From NCBI RefSeq assembly GCF_011758565.1, contig NZ_JAAMOX010000004.1:1-64000 (forward strand): a stretch of 64,000 nucleotides of DNA, read 5' to 3'. Positions within the stretch are counted from its first letter, which is position 1; each line of letters starts with the position of its first letter. This DNA is from Lysinibacter cavernae. Lineage in GTDB: Bacteria > Actinomycetota > Actinomycetes > Actinomycetales > Microbacteriaceae. Positions 9,785-44,417 of this stretch are shown in pieces. Position numbers and translations under genes: made by a program. Below the pieces are notes generated by a model. It had not been told where the DNA came from and made no database searches. It worked only from the letters and a program-made list of their open reading frames with translations.

Positions 9785-12637
9785 ATGACTCGCCCCACAT
9801 CACTCAACGCCACACTTCTTGACGGGCTCCGCGCCTCGGTCGGCTCACCAGAGCACGTGCGTACGCGCGCAATCGACCTGCACGCCAACGCCCACGATGC
9901 CTCACACTTTCTCCTGGTGCCCCAGGCAGTGGTCATCGCAGAGAACGCGGCGGATGTTGGGGCGCTGCTCGCCACGAGCGCAGCGCAGGGCGTTCCGCTC
10001 ACGCTGCGCTCCGGCGGCACCAGCCTGAGCGGGCAGGGCATCACCGACGGCATCCTTGTCGATGTTCGCCGCAACTTCAAGCAAATTGAGGTGCTCGACA
10101 ACGGTGACCGCGTGCGCGTGCAGCCTGGTGTCACGGTGCGGGCCCTCAACATGCGGCTCGCCAAATACGGCCGCAAGTTTGGGCCAGACCCTGCCAGCGA
10201 ATCCGCCTGCACCATCGGCGGCGTAATTGCGAACAACTCAAGCGGCATGGCCTGCGGCACCGTCGAAAACACGTACAACACGCTCGAATCTCTCACGATC
10301 GTCCTGCCAAGTGGAACGGTTGTTGATACGGCTCTCCCCGACGCCGAAGAGCGGCTGCGAGCCCTCGAGCCAACACTGTTCGATGGGCTCCACAGGCTTG
10401 CGAAGCGCGTGCGCGATAATGCGTCGTCCGTCGCAAACATCCGCCGCCAGTTCTCGATGAAGAACACCATGGGCTACGGCATCAACTCCCTGCTCGACTA
10501 CGAGCGGGCCGTCGACATCCTTGCCCACCTCATCGTCGGCAGCGAAGGAACACTCGGGTTTGTCGCAGAGGCCGTGTTCCGCACCGTTCCCCTCGCACCG
10601 CACGCCTCAACAGGGCTGCTCGTCTTCGAGACCTTAGAGGCCGCCACGAGCGCGCTCCCCGCCCTCGTCGAAACGGGCGCGGCAACGCTTGAACTCATGG
10701 ACGCGCTGTCACTCAAGATTGGGCAGCAGGCCTCGGACGCCCCCGCGGCAGTGCAAGGCCTATCCGTCGACCGGCACGCTGCGCTACTCGTTGAGTACCA
10801 GGCGCAGACCGTCGCAGAACTCGCGCACCTTGAACAGGCGGGCAACGCGTTGGGGCCGACGCTTGGGCTGAGCGCACCGGCATCCTTCACCACGGCATCC
10901 GCGACCCGCGCCTCGCTCTGGCACCTGCGCAAAGGGCTCTACACGACCATCGCGGGAGCCCGCCCGGCGGGAACAACGGCCCTGCTCGAAGACGTGGTGG
11001 TTCCCGTCGAACGACTCGCGCCAACGTGTAACAGCCTCTCGGAACTCTTCGACCGCTACGCGTACGAAAACAGCGTCATCTTTGGGCACGCCAAAGACGG
11101 CAATGTGCACTTCATGCTCACCGACGGCTTCGAATCGGCTGAGCAGATCGACCGCTACACCGCCTTCACCGAAGACCTTGTTGACCTCATTCTCGGCGAG
11201 GGAGGCTCGCTCAAGGCCGAGCACGGCACCGGACGGGTCATGGCCCCGTTTGTGCGCAGGCAGTACGGCGACGAACTCTACGATGTTATGCGCCAGATCA
11301 AGCTCCTGTGCGACCCGGTAGGGATGCTCAACCCCGGAGTCCTCCTCGACGACGACCCAACGGCACACCTCCGCCACATCAAGCAGGCCCTCCCCGTCAA
11401 CGCCGAGGTCGACCGCTGCGTCGAATGCGGATACTGCGAACCAGTCTGCCCAAGCCGTAACGTGACGCTCACTCCACGACAGCGCATCGTGACGCTTCGT
11501 GCCATCGAGCAGGCAAAGCTCGACGGTGACACTGAGCTCGTAAAAAGCCTCGAACACGATTACGTCTACGACGGTGTGCAGACGTGCGCGGTTGACGGCA
11601 TGTGCCAGACGGCGTGTCCGGTGCAGATCAACACGGGAAGCCTCGTCAAGCTCCTGCGTCGCGAAGACGTGAATGGCCTTGAGCAGGGTCTCTGGAACTC
11701 GGCCGCGAAGAAGTGGGGCGCGGTCACCGCCGGCGCTGGCCTCGCGCTCAACGTCGTCGATAAAGTGCCCCAGGCCATCATCACGCCGCCAAACGTGCTC
11801 GCGCGAGCGGTGCTTGGCAAAGACACCGTTCCCTTGTACTCACCGGAGCTCCCCGGCGGCGGGTCTTCGCGCAAGCGTCCGGCTCCCCCTGCATCCGCCG
11901 TCGTGGATGCCGTGTACATGCCCGCGTGCGTCAACACGATGTTTGGCCCCGCCAACGAACCAGGCGGCTCAGAAGGCCCCGGCGTGCAGCTGTCGTTCGA
12001 GGCGCTGTGCGAAAAGGTGGGGCTGACGCTCCTGGTTCCCGACGATGTTAATAACCTCTGCTGCGGTACCCCGTGGTCGTCAAAGGGCCTCTCAAAGGGC
12101 CAGCACACCATGCAAGAGCGCACAGTTGCTTCGCTTCGCGAGGCAAGCCGCGACGGCGAGCTTGTAATCGTCTGCGATGCCTCCTCGTGCACCGAGGGGC
12201 TCCTCCATGCGATCGAAAACGAAAACGCAACCTCTGCCCGCCCGCTTCGCGTGGTGGATGCGGTCGATTTTGTTGCCGAGCGGGTGCTTCCCCTGCTGCC
12301 AGAACACGGCAAACTTGAGCGGCTCGTCCTGCACCCGACCTGCTCCTCGACTCGCATGGGTGGGAACGGCGCACTCGCTGAGGTCGCAGCTGCGGTCGCG
12401 ACGGACGTTGTGATTCCGGAGAACTGGGGATGTTGTGCGTTTGCGGGTGACCGAGGAATGCTCCATCCTGAGCTCACCGCCTCTGCGACGGCCGCCGAAG
12501 CCAGCGAAGTGGCCGACGTGGATGCCTCGGCCCACGCATCCTGCAACCGCACCTGCGAGCTCGGCATGACGAGGGCGACAGGCGAGCAATACCGCCACGT
12601 TTTGGAGCTACTCAACCAACTCGCAACCTCCGACTAA
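9785..12637 (+). CDS. dld: FAD- and Fe-S-containing D-lactate dehydrogenase (Dld-II type)
   Basis: 950 residues. In order: a FAD-binding_4 domain (about 40-260, with LRSGGTSLSGQGI and the flavin region IGGVIANNSSGMACG), a FAD-oxidase C-terminal domain (to about 520, with HAKDGNVHF and LKAEHGTGR), two ferredoxin-like clusters (CVECGYCEPVCP near 544 and CAVDGMCQTACP near 600), and CCG domains (CCGTPWSSKG near 758 and CCAFAGDRGM near 880). This matches large membrane-associated respiratory D-lactate dehydrogenases such as Shewanella Dld-II, also found next to a lactate permease. It feeds electrons to quinone or cytochrome. The ATG at 9785 fits the family; an upstream reading extension overlaps lldP and is not real. 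D-2-hydroxyglutarate or glycolate as substrate cannot be excluded. Confidence 0.9.
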   Translation: MTRPTSLNATLLDGLRASVGSPEHVRTRAIDLHANAHDASHFLLVPQAVVIAENAADVGALLATSAAQGVPLTLRSGGTSLSGQGITDGILVDVRRNFKQIEVLDNGDRVRVQPGVTVRALNMRLAKYGRKFGPDPASESACTIGGVIANNSSGMACGTVENTYNTLESLTIVLPSGTVVDTALPDAEERLRALEPTLFDGLHRLAKRVRDNASSVANIRRQFSMKNTMGYGINSLLDYERAVDILAHLIVGSEGTLGFVAEAVFRTVPLAPHASTGLLVFETLEAATSALPALVETGAATLELMDALSLKIGQQASDAPAAVQGLSVDRHAALLVEYQAQTVAELAHLEQAGNALGPTLGLSAPASFTTASATRASLWHLRKGLYTTIAGARPAGTTALLEDVVVPVERLAPTCNSLSELFDRYAYENSVIFGHAKDGNVHFMLTDGFESAEQIDRYTAFTEDLVDLILGEGGSLKAEHGTGRVMAPFVRRQYGDELYDVMRQIKLLCDPVGMLNPGVLLDDDPTAHLRHIKQALPVNAEVDRCVECGYCEPVCPSRNVTLTPRQRIVTLRAIEQAKLDGDTELVKSLEHDYVYDGVQTCAVDGMCQTACPVQINTGSLVKLLRREDVNGLEQGLWNSAAKKWGAVTAGAGLALNVVDKVPQAIITPPNVLARAVLGKDTVPLYSPELPGGGSSRKRPAPPASAVVDAVYMPACVNTMFGPANEPGGSEGPGVQLSFEALCEKVGLTLLVPDDVNNLCCGTPWSSKGLSKGQHTMQERTVASLREASRDGELVIVCDASSCTEGLLHAIENENATSARPLRVVDAVDFVAERVLPLLPEHGKLERLVLHPTCSSTRMGGNGALAEVAAAVATDVVIPENWGCCAFAGDRGMLHPELTASATAAEASEVADVDASAHASCNRTCELGMTRATGEQYRHVLELLNQLATSD

Positions 12638-12698
12638 CCTGCATCTATTTGTGAGTTTCTGCGCATAAATCCTGGATTTTGCGCAGAAACTCACAAAT
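12635..12698. repeat. Palindromic repeat A, upstream of the DUF559 gene
   Basis: It begins at the TAA stop of the dehydrogenase gene with TAACCTGCATCTATTTG. Arms 12647-12665 and 12680-12698 are a perfect 19-bp inverted repeat (ATTTGTGAGTTTCTGCGCA), and the loop itself pairs (AAATCC with GGATTT), making a hairpin of about 25 bp. The outer right arm is degraded compared with copy B. The strand opposite carries the same hairpin, so it could end transcription in either direction, but there is no T-run. Confidence 0.85.
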
Positions 12699-12791
12699 GC
12701 ATACGTCTCCACAGCCCGCTATCACAGCGCAACTCTGCACAGATTTATCCCGTTAGCGCGCGAAGCTGCGCGGGCGCTCGATGATTGCGCC

Positions 12792-13727
12792 ATGCCCAAA
12801 TCATCCGATCCCCCGCTCCCCTTCCACCAGCAAGCGTTCGCGGTGCGTGACGCGTTGGACGCCGGCATCACGCCGGGCAAACTCCGATCCAACAACCTCG
12901 CGCGGCCGTTCCAAGGAATACGTTCAGAAGGCGCTGAGCCACTGAGCGTAATCGACTTCTGCCGAGCGTATCTTCCCCGTTGTAAAGCTGAGCAGTTCTT
13001 CAGCCACCAGACCGCGGCCACCATTTGGGGCGTGCCGCTCCCCCAACGGCTGCAAACCTTGCCATTGCACATTGCTACGTTCTTTCCAAAGACCGCACCG
13101 ACAGGGCGAAATCTCACCGGACATCAGCTGTCCGCATACGGAGCACGGATGCTGTGGCGAGACGGCCTGCCCGTGCTGGATGCGGCGACCGTCTGGCTGC
13201 AATTGGCCTCGCTCCTCCCCTTTCGCGATCATGTGGCGGCCGGCGACTATCTGGTCCGCGCGCCTGAGTTCAACCAACCTGGCGACTGGCGCCCCTTTGT
13301 ATTGCTCGACGAATTGCACCGGCGGGTTGAGATGTACCACGGCCCGGGTAAACGACGGGCGGTTCGGGCAATTGCGCATGTTCGTGACGGTGCCGATTCT
13401 CGACCGGAGACGCTCCTCCGACTCCTCATGGCAGATGCGGGCTTCCCTGTTCCCGATCTGAACCCCATCGTCGCTGACCGACACGGTGAACGTATCGGGC
13501 GGGCCGACTTTGTGTTTTGGCAGCACCGACTCATTGTTGAGTACGACGGCGACCAACACCGGACAGACGACGTTCAATATGACCGAGATATGACAAGGCT
13601 CGACCGGTTTCTGTCGGATGACTGGAAACTCGTACGAATACGAAAAGCCCAGCTCTTCGATGCTCCCGAAGAAGGTATCCGCCGCATCGCCGAGGCCCTC
13701 CGATCCCGAGGCTGGGAAGCCCCCTAA
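12792..13727 (+). CDS. DUF559 / Vsr-like endonuclease-fold protein
   Basis: 311 residues. The N-terminal two thirds resemble the winged-helix and linker region seen in AbiEi-like and DUF559 proteins of actinobacteria (FFSHQTAATIWGVPLP). The C-terminus has a DUF559 domain of the PD-(D/E)XK/Vsr nuclease fold: GRADFVFW with an Asp, IVEYDGDQHR with E, D and H, then a conserved RD..R pattern and WKLVRIRKAQLFD. The putative metal-binding D...ExD set is intact. Function in cells is unknown for this family. The gene sits alone between two copies of a palindromic repeat, the second of which starts on its own stop codon. Codon use looks like that of the neighbours, so a very recent foreign origin is not evident. 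Confidence 0.8.
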   Translation: MPKSSDPPLPFHQQAFAVRDALDAGITPGKLRSNNLARPFQGIRSEGAEPLSVIDFCRAYLPRCKAEQFFSHQTAATIWGVPLPQRLQTLPLHIATFFPKTAPTGRNLTGHQLSAYGARMLWRDGLPVLDAATVWLQLASLLPFRDHVAAGDYLVRAPEFNQPGDWRPFVLLDELHRRVEMYHGPGKRRAVRAIAHVRDGADSRPETLLRLLMADAGFPVPDLNPIVADRHGERIGRADFVFWQHRLIVEYDGDQHRTDDVQYDRDMTRLDRFLSDDWKLVRIRKAQLFDAPEEGIRRIAEALRSRGWEAP

Positions 13728-13800
13728 CCTGCATCTATTTGCGACTTTCTGTCGAGATTGCGCATTTTCTCAGCAGAAACTCGCAAATAGATGCAGGTTA
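13725..13800. repeat. Palindromic repeat B, downstream of the DUF559 gene
   Basis: Arms at 13725-13751 and 13774-13800 are 27 bases each and pair at 26 of 27 positions. The left arm starts with TAA, the stop codon of the DUF559 gene, and shares 25 of 27 bases, including the first 17, with the left part of copy A. The 22-base centre is not conserved with copy A. Confidence 0.9.
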
Positions 13801-13845: not shown

Positions 13846-14607
13846 GTGAGTGTTTCCGCAGAAGGTCCGAGCGCATCAGGGCGCCTGCACGAAAGTACTC
13901 TCGACGCCATTGGCTCCGCGATCGTGCGCGGCGAGCTGCCGCCCGGCATCCCGCTCACCATCGAACAACTCGAGCAACGCTACGGGGTGTCACGGTCTGT
14001 CATCCGAGATTGTCTTCGGTCGCTCCAGACAATGAATCTGGTTCAGTCAAAACCGCGTGTCGGCGTCACCCCTCGCCCAGCATCCGAGTGGAACGTCTAC
14101 GAGCCGAAGGTCATCCGTTGGCGGCTCGACAGTAACGACCGGGCGCACCAGCTCAGAACCCTCACGCAGCTCCGCGCCGCCGTCGAACCACAGGCAGCCG
14201 GTCTTGCCGCCGCGAACATCAGCCCCCAGTCGGCCAGCGAACTCAACGGCATCGCCGGTGAAATGTGGGCGGCAGGCCGGTCAGGGGATGCCGAACGCTT
14301 CCTTGCCCTCGACATCCGCTTCCACCAGCTCATCCTGCAGCTGAGCGGAAACGAAATGTTTTCACACCTGCACGCGGTGGTGAGCGAAGTACTCACGGGG
14401 CGCACCGCCCACGGGCTCATGCCTGCCCACCCGCATCCGGATGCCCTGCAACAGCACCTTGACGTTGCCGAAGCGGTTGGCAGCGGCAACCAGCAAGCCG
14501 CAATCGACGCGATGCAACGCCTCATGAACCGCACGCTCACTGAGATGCTGCGCCGCGCGGCTGAGGAACAACCCGCCACCGCATCGTCCCCACAACCACC
14601 TCAATAA
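13846..14607 (+). CDS. GntR/FCD-family regulator next to gnd
   Basis: 253 residues: a GntR winged helix (about 15-80, with LTIEQLEQRYGVSRSVIRDCLRSL) and an FCD domain (about 95-225, with AVEPQAAGLAA, RFLALDIRFHQLILQLSGN and a late His in LQQHLDVAEAV for metal binding). It reads into gnd, 25 bases downstream, so I infer a gluconate or sugar-acid responsive regulator of 6-phosphogluconate metabolism. The start is GTG at 13846, likely leaderless. It is the second FCD regulator within 6 kb; the two are not close copies. Confidence 0.88.
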   Translation: MSVSAEGPSASGRLHESTLDAIGSAIVRGELPPGIPLTIEQLEQRYGVSRSVIRDCLRSLQTMNLVQSKPRVGVTPRPASEWNVYEPKVIRWRLDSNDRAHQLRTLTQLRAAVEPQAAGLAAANISPQSASELNGIAGEMWAAGRSGDAERFLALDIRFHQLILQLSGNEMFSHLHAVVSEVLTGRTAHGLMPAHPHPDALQQHLDVAEAVGSGNQQAAIDAMQRLMNRTLTEMLRRAAEEQPATASSPQPPQ

Positions 14608-16130: not shown

Positions 16131-16211
16131 TTCGTGGGGTGCATTCCCGCTCGTGGGGCGCGAAAAACCGCGCCCCGGGAGCAGGATCGCACCCCATGAG
16201 AGAATGAGCGC

Positions 16212-44280: not shown

Positions 44281-44343
44281 CCGCGCTCATTCCGCGCCGC
44301 TGCGTCCGTGAACCCGTATCTCGGGTCCAACATCCTGCTTCCC

Positions 44344-44405
44344 AATCGAGGGCGGGCTATCCACCCCTTTCACCACAACGAAGGGGAGATATCCCGCCCT
44401 CGATT
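44344..44405 (+). other. Large stem-loop upstream of the GH3 genes
   Basis: AATCGAGGGCGGG (44344-44356) pairs perfectly with CCCGCCCTCGATT (44393-44405). Inside, TATC pairs with GATA and CCCCTT with AAGGGG, leaving loop CACCACAACG. No T-run follows, so it is not a normal terminator. The loop ACCAC could pair with GTGGT just downstream. Confidence 0.65.
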
Positions 44406-44417
44406 GTGGTTAACCAC
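44406..44417. promoter_or_regulatory. Perfect 12-bp palindrome, possible operator for the GH3 operon
   Basis: GTGGTTAACCAC is a perfect palindrome directly after the stem-loop. A candidate promoter follows: TTCACA (44424-44429) and TAACAT (44448-44453) at 18-base spacing. This fits a repressor site just upstream of the -35 box. Confidence 0.5.

Follow-up and report, generated by a model that had tools for sequence, protein, structure and literature searches.

In the genome of Lysinibacter cavernae, a gene of DUF559, a Pfam family of unknown function, lies between two copies of a 72-bp palindrome within the 64,000-nt stretch that we analysed (contig NZ_JAAMOX010000004.1, positions 1 to 64,000; hereafter the window). 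This palindrome is dispersed through the intergenic DNA of the genome, and the arrangement recurs in the same cell: the nine nuclease-type genes of this kind that we identified adjoin nine palindrome families, matched one to one. The window family is restricted to this lineage, and similarity among the nucleases tracks similarity among their palindromes. We read the locus as part of a two-part, REPIN-like system, in which a DUF559 nuclease gene bracketed by its private palindrome is accompanied by dispersed intergenic copies that would arise by nuclease-driven copying, and we put the probability of this reading at roughly one half.

The window locus and its dispersed palindrome

An earlier note, made from the letters of the window, had proposed a REP-like family with a nuclease partner from two related palindromes, A and B, around a lone gene (Table 1). 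Its description of the locus held: the left ends of A and B have 25 of 27 bases in common, the first 17 being identical, each begins at the TAA stop codon of the gene before it (12635 and 13725), and their spacing, given as about 1.09 kb, measures 1090 bp. The gene between them is indeed DUF559, scoring 26.7 bits for PF04480 (cut-off 20.6), with a further match, below cut-off, to MTES_1575, a restriction-endonuclease-type domain. We take the protein to be of the PD-(D/E)XK, Vsr-like type. A PDB sequence search with a profile of six DUF559 paralogs returned 3hrl, an endonuclease-like protein, as the sole match up to E=1; a single-sequence AlphaFold model (mean predicted local distance difference test score, pLDDT, 38.6) was set aside and not used. 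Both copies had been described as palindromic, which is true of B (13725-13800) but not of the outer right arm of A (12699-12708), whose decay leaves it palindromic over 12647-12698 only.

The first 17 bases, allowing up to two mismatches, matched the genome 34 times forward and 39 times in reverse (reversed control pattern, 0), and these matches group into 45 elements. A profile search (model R1) recovered 47 elements, each matched on both strands with 46 to 77 bits. The earlier note had counted genome-wide palindromes without a link to DUF559 genes as evidence against its idea and, for the window family alone, that is the outcome: only two of the 47 copies flank the window gene and the other 45 lie away from it, a distribution also expected of a dispersed family that has a single partner gene. 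All 45 copies checked are intergenic. According to a simple purpose-written gene predictor, 43 stand between two genes (28 tandem, 9 convergent, 6 divergent), two are next to a gene on just one of their sides, and overlap with a gene never exceeds 8 nt. An edge lies within 15 nt of a predicted 3' end in 30 of the 45, and the overlap with a stop codon seen at A and B does not extend to the family as a rule (7 of 45, by one base). The family was absent from 118 related genomes (E 0.001), and an exact 28-base pattern had no match in 84,980 species genomes, a set from which our own and near genomes may have been left out; five contig matches in other phyla and one viral match were dismissed as chance.

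Elements are exactly 72 bp long in 44 of 45 copies. The outer 15 bp of each arm are near-invariant in most, and about one fifth of copies have lost part of one outer arm. At the variable arm positions (16, 19, 20-22, 23 and 26) the choice of base is narrow: G or C with few exceptions at 19, always A or T at 20-22, and C or T at 23 (nearly always) and 26 (always), with the adjacent GA (17-18) and TG (24-25) almost invariant. Such narrow base classes hint at minor-groove or shape readout. Across the 45 copies, the 3-9 bases outside the element are rich in C at the left end and in G at the right, so that the preferred site or footprint may exceed 72 bp. The 373-kb contig C3 of this genome (G000) carries none of the 47 copies, yet holds members of other families.

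Several properties of the family weigh against nuclease-driven copying. Below 46 bits the profile finds a single match, at 13.5 bits, with no decayed tail. The central 22 bp are unrelated among 44 copies (median 11 of 22 identical over pairs; one pair, L030-L056, agrees at 21), and, together with the lack of decayed copies, this fits selected sites as well as mobile ones. The arms vary independently: bases pair in 83.3% of cells vs 83.8% in shuffles (43 sequences), so that covariation does not exceed shuffles and a hairpin intermediate is not evidenced. None of the 45 copies has a target-site duplication of 3 bp or more, and 2-bp flanking duplications occur in six vs 2.7 expected. The independent variation of the arms, together with Rfam searches that gave microRNA matches only, far below gathering scores, led us to reject an RNA hairpin or intrinsic terminator as the identity of the element. 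Targeting to tRNA genes was also rejected, none being present in the 43 palindrome loci checked, a set that lacks the two window copies.

The strongest alternative gives the palindromes a role for the host, in chromosome organisation, at transcript ends or in insulation: they would be the cognate sites to which the DUF559 protein binds, and new ones would arise slowly and be retained by selection, not spread by movement. In its favour are strictly kept arms and spacing around unrelated centres, a family free of decayed copies, a two-fold symmetry that shows no pairing covariation, and clustering behind stop codons. Absence of the family from 118 relatives is harder to reconcile with a host role, a regulator would not be expected to have its gene bracketed on both sides, and by a rough estimate the sequence information exceeds the need of 47 sites in such a genome. 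We regard selected binding sites as a serious but somewhat unlikely explanation, on which the other DUF559 genes of the genome also bear.

Nine nuclease-type genes and nine private families

PF04480 matches seven times in the genome, and only the window gene is near window-family palindromes. With six of the seven matches lacking this palindrome nearby, the link to DUF559 would look like coincidence; that view was overturned by the other five intact DUF559 genes, each of which has its own adjoining palindrome of different sequence. L059-L062 are above the PF04480 cut-off, and L063 scores 20.4 (over the cut-off in the genome search). The six-paralog profile added L155 (C1:1200816) and L157 (C1:1985035), bracketed by two further families, and L159 (C1:1951506), which has one palindrome, upstream; these three have no PF04480 match and are members by paralog-profile match only. 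Eight of the nine genes are bracketed on both sides by their own family and the ninth on one side. The private palindromes measure about 56-76 bp, and L161, a broken DUF559 gene, still has one.

To score bracketing, the left and right flanks of a gene were compared by best local alignment in either orientation, with a threshold of 17.5 (highest score among 600 mismatched pairs, 17.0). Eight of the nine nuclease-type genes pass. Among 259 open reading frames (ORFs) of at least 200 aa from the window and a 400-kb systematic sample, only two do so, the window gene and a tail-type gene duplication that is non-palindromic. By eye, an E-[YF]-D-G nuclease motif is kept in all nine palindrome-linked genes and lacking in two distant paralogs, L158 (C3:315207) and L160 (C1:232015), which fail the test with scores of 11.0 and 11.5; the former has no palindrome and the latter one short 38-bp hairpin upstream.

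Approached from the palindromes, the window and sample contain 37 strong ones, A and B included, compared with none in 60 kb of shuffled sequence. Twenty-five belong to the nine families, all of which are represented, and three families were met first as orphan repeats whose genes were found afterwards. Judged by eye, the other 12 are mostly short and terminator-like; that of L124 (58 bp) may be another family, and since only about one-eighth of the genome was scanned, further families may exist. When strong palindromes from 400-kb samples were clustered, this genome yielded six families, each linked to DUF559, and the relative G080 a single family, which belongs to its DUF559 gene; among the 39 palindromes of G016, a genome without DUF559 matches, only one pair, of terminator-like hairpins, came together.

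Protein and palindrome similarity were correlated across the nine families (Mantel r=0.41, p=0.001) and among the seven close paralogs (r=0.52, p=0.024), with small n and half-site consensus sequences picked by eye. The closest protein pairs, L059-L062 and L060-L061, rank first and third among palindrome pairs, and the second-ranked palindrome pair, L157-L159, joins mutually closest proteins. This correlation supports recognition but does not prove it, because shared descent alone could produce it.

These results bear on two of the alternatives. That paralogs in one cell have different palindromes and that all nine linked genes keep a nuclease-type motif are further points against selected binding sites, while an AbiEi_4 domain in L159 speaks for them, barely over its cut-off (25.2 vs 25 bits), since AbiEi proteins bind inverted repeats (PMC7319586). 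Conceivably, too, the link is one of position and not of function, host palindromes such as terminators having been there before DUF559 genes arrived beside them. The elements do stand behind stop codons, and one Arthrobacter copy comes after a separate terminator-like hairpin. However, each gene has a different family in a one-to-one match, palindrome similarity follows protein similarity, the paralogs without the motif have no matched pair, and the 400-kb sample of G016 holds no repeated palindrome family beyond one pair of terminator-like hairpins. This explanation is already disfavoured, and we consider it very improbable.

A third possibility is movement of the entire bracketed unit as an IS-like or cassette-like element, with solo palindromes as its miniature derivatives or excision scars. 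In favour of this, paired copies share their centres at L059, L060, L061, L063 and L157, and at L061 the repetition goes past the palindrome. There (464-527 and 1745-1808) a direct repeat of 81 bp with one mismatch passes the palindrome by 14 bp on one side and 3 on the other, which suggests duplication of a larger segment. Nevertheless, no family has more than one gene in this genome, the scattered copies seen have centres that differ from those of the gene-linked pair, and target-site duplications are lacking. We rate movement of the whole unit as improbable. An apparent second L063-type unit (L156), which might have passed for transposition, was ruled out as a contig-end assembly duplicate: the ends of C1 (L156) and C2 (L063) are the same region (99.2% identity, 16 gaps, extending past the palindromes), and their overlap mimics a broken second DUF559 unit.

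Table 1. Features located in the window (positions counted from its first nucleotide; the names dld, gntR and gnd used here and in the text are taken over from the earlier note)
Feature	Position	Strand	Remarks
Palindrome A	12637..12708	.	72-bp window-family element; profile match 12637-12702, 62.4 and 63.3 bits
DUF559/MTES_1575 nuclease-type gene	12792..13727	+	311 aa; motif IVEYDGDQHR
Palindrome B	13727..13798	.	72-bp window-family element, intact; 69.6 and 70.7 bits
gntR-type gene	13846..14607	+	missing between dld and gnd in two relatives
Dispersed palindrome	16132..16199	.	family of the L157 (C1:1985k) DUF559 gene
Dispersed palindrome	44343..44406	.	family of the L060 (C1:1258k) DUF559 gene

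Recurrence in relatives and empty-site comparisons

DUF559 is present in 38 of the 59 genomes searched (our own included), with up to seven matches per genome. From the 37 matching relatives we assembled 29 loci, each the best match of its genome, one of which (L107) was untestable. With in-frame ORFs, a matched pair of flanking repeats was found at 13 of 28 DUF559 loci vs 0 of 36 control genes (Fisher p=3e-6), the controls being taken from 20 of these genomes, one arbitrarily chosen 4-kb stretch apiece. A first pass, in which L097 and L106 were on out-of-frame ORFs, had given 12 of 28; in that pass 19 of 28 loci had a pair or a strong hairpin, and 3 of 36 controls had a strong hairpin. At L113, outside the count, a matched pair hidden by the choice of start was seen by inspection.

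Among named records, the pair was present at 8 of 9 DUF559 loci vs 0 of 12 neighbouring genes: two genes of Arthrobacter sp. StoSoilB13, one of Arthrobacter sp. ERGS1:01, three of Tsukamurella tyrosinosolvens, one of Collinsella aerofaciens and one on an unverified gut 'Bacteriophage sp.' contig. No DUF559 relative was found in viral contigs. Four of the palindrome families in these records are dispersed: those of StoSoilB13 occur in 33 and 10 places, all on its two replicons (72,556 plasmid records searched), that of Tsukamurella in 12 places in 9 records of one strain, and that of Collinsella in 9 places in one record. Similarly, G080 has nine half-site matches vs none for the control, four of them far from the gene. 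The proposal of a REP-like family with a nuclease partner is supported far outside the window: nine paralogs here each have their own adjoining family, and the pairing recurs in other genera, in other families and in one other class.

Three observations on these loci stand apart from the counts. The Collinsella gene is flanked by a small array instead of single copies, with three palindromes to one side of it and two to the other (L275; 1705-2005 and 3110-3252). StoSoilB13 carries a third palindrome family, GCAACGCGGGGTCACTTAC (L167 23343-23413 and 33691-33757; L169 11605-11669), for which there was no partner gene among the protein matches gathered. One Tsukamurella DUF559 unit lies with its palindromes (L278 2327-3386) between purC and purB, both on the opposite strand.

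Part of this survey counts against the REPIN-like reading. Fifteen of the 28 relatives' loci fail the pair test, as does the Nonomuraea locus among the named records. Strong hairpins (14 or more) stood on both sides at 5 of the 12 first-pass loci; at the remainder the matched repeats were weakly palindromic on at least one side, and L102 had no strong hairpin. Of the Tsukamurella pairs, two consist of direct repeats in which the scan scored no palindrome. In G024, five of six half-site matches are at the gene and one is elsewhere, and two congeners have none.

The earlier note had looked to other strains for an empty site between dld and gnd, and this was borne out in part. The most similar dld genes are those of G018 (82%) and G016 (80%), where gnd follows directly, about 100 bp after dld; the locus has neither a DUF559 gene nor gntR, and both genomes lack DUF559 matches (E 0.001) and window-family palindromes altogether. 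An interval left unoccupied in two relatives counts in favour of the two-part system and would also suit an element moving whole. The site cannot be called cleanly empty of the 1.09-kb unit, because gntR is absent as well, and none of the other eleven loci in the comparison showed gnd next to dld. At the junction behind DUF3151, a palindrome is present in StoSoilB13 but not in ERGS1:01, and the intergenic DNA there is too diverged for a precise junction to be demonstrable. No movement was seen, there being no strain pair, clean empty site or target-site duplication; this weighs against the copying of elements that we propose.

Proposed mechanism and comparison with known systems

In the system we favour, the nuclease would most likely bind the two inverted arms as a dimer and then cut at or near the element, and the cut would let repair or replication copy the element elsewhere, mainly into gaps just behind genes. 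The need for recognition would keep the arms and their spacing while the centre drifts. Several such systems, each with its own sequence, would operate side by side in a genome. The association of gene and palindrome is shown, whereas recognition, cleavage, copying or movement, and any benefit to the host, are inferred. Extended beyond this genome, the proposal is that REPIN-like populations are also founded and maintained by a second class of enzyme, unrelated to the first, namely DUF559 proteins across Actinomycetota, with a PD-(D/E)XK nuclease in place of the HUH transposase and at least nine orthogonal systems in one genome; we advance it tentatively, at a little under even odds.

To our knowledge, lasting populations of palindromes tied to an enzyme have been described in bacterial genomes only for REPIN/RAYT. 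A second, independent case based on a different enzyme would mean that such a lifestyle has evolved repeatedly, and it would offer a way to study how a nuclease can maintain many targets and yet spare its host. If the proposal is true, REPIN-like repeats gain a second enzyme class and the very common DUF559 family a function; already, a constant genomic partner gives DUF559 a testable role. Each nuclease with its palindrome also has the look of a recognition pair for a long and specific stretch of DNA; with nine of them in a single genome, their specificity can be tested at once. No paper linking DUF559 to palindromic repeats was found in the open-access literature of PubMed Central, which leaves preprints and subscription papers outside; of 14 papers there that mention DUF559, two also speak of palindromes, on other subjects by title and opening of the abstract. 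The same literature held nothing relevant, by title, on repeats in related groups.

With DUF559/Vsr-like endonucleases such as VsrA and Escherichia coli Vsr, the window protein shares the family of its C-terminal nuclease domain. In the portion of the study consulted, VsrA, a DUF559 protein of Caulobacter, is blamed for the DNA damage response upon loss of a cytosine methyltransferase, the role discussed is mismatch repair at methylated cytosines, and no word beginning 'palindrom' appears (PMC12907096). The domain family and this tie to methylation would be in keeping with a restriction-like or addiction system, the palindromes serving to mark self or to tune the nuclease. Yet no DNA methyltransferase is annotated near the five annotated named loci, and one would hardly expect such a system to have nine private sequences in parallel within a genome; we think it highly unlikely. 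The likeness to AbiEi-type antitoxins consists of the domain in L159 and one Tsukamurella relative so named in its record; unlike them, the five annotated loci have no AbiEii toxin annotated alongside (several neighbours are 'hypothetical'), and window-type proteins carry a C-terminal nuclease domain. As in miniature inverted-repeat transposable elements (MITEs) and insertion sequences, the elements are short, non-coding inverted repeats in many copies, but the window family lacks target-site duplications and its centres are not common to the copies.

The closest comparison for palindrome populations accompanied by an enzyme is REPIN/RAYT, also named REPtron or TnpA-REP (PMC3116915). RAYT coding sequences are bordered by palindromes, and enzyme and repeat co-evolve, as far as the consulted text goes (PMC8266576). 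The accessible text of a survey of GTAG/CGTC-tagged palindromes does not contain 'Actinobacteria' (PMC3733652). No RAYT partner was found here: its domain, PF01797, has no match in the genome, and the same search matches in 5 of 14 control genomes. The candidate enzyme is a DUF559 protein and not an HUH Y1 transposase, the consensus of the window family (the only one compared in this respect) lacks a GTAG or CGTC foot, and the arm statistics give no evidence of single-strand hairpin use. In other respects the two agree. Both have dispersed extragenic palindromic doublets with conserved arms and a less conserved spacer, an enzyme gene bordered by copies of its own repeat, several private families per genome, and enzyme and repeat that co-vary (here over nine families, with half-sites chosen by eye). 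The anatomy described here thus looks like that of REPIN/RAYT systems, of which it is apparently an undescribed counterpart with a different enzyme.

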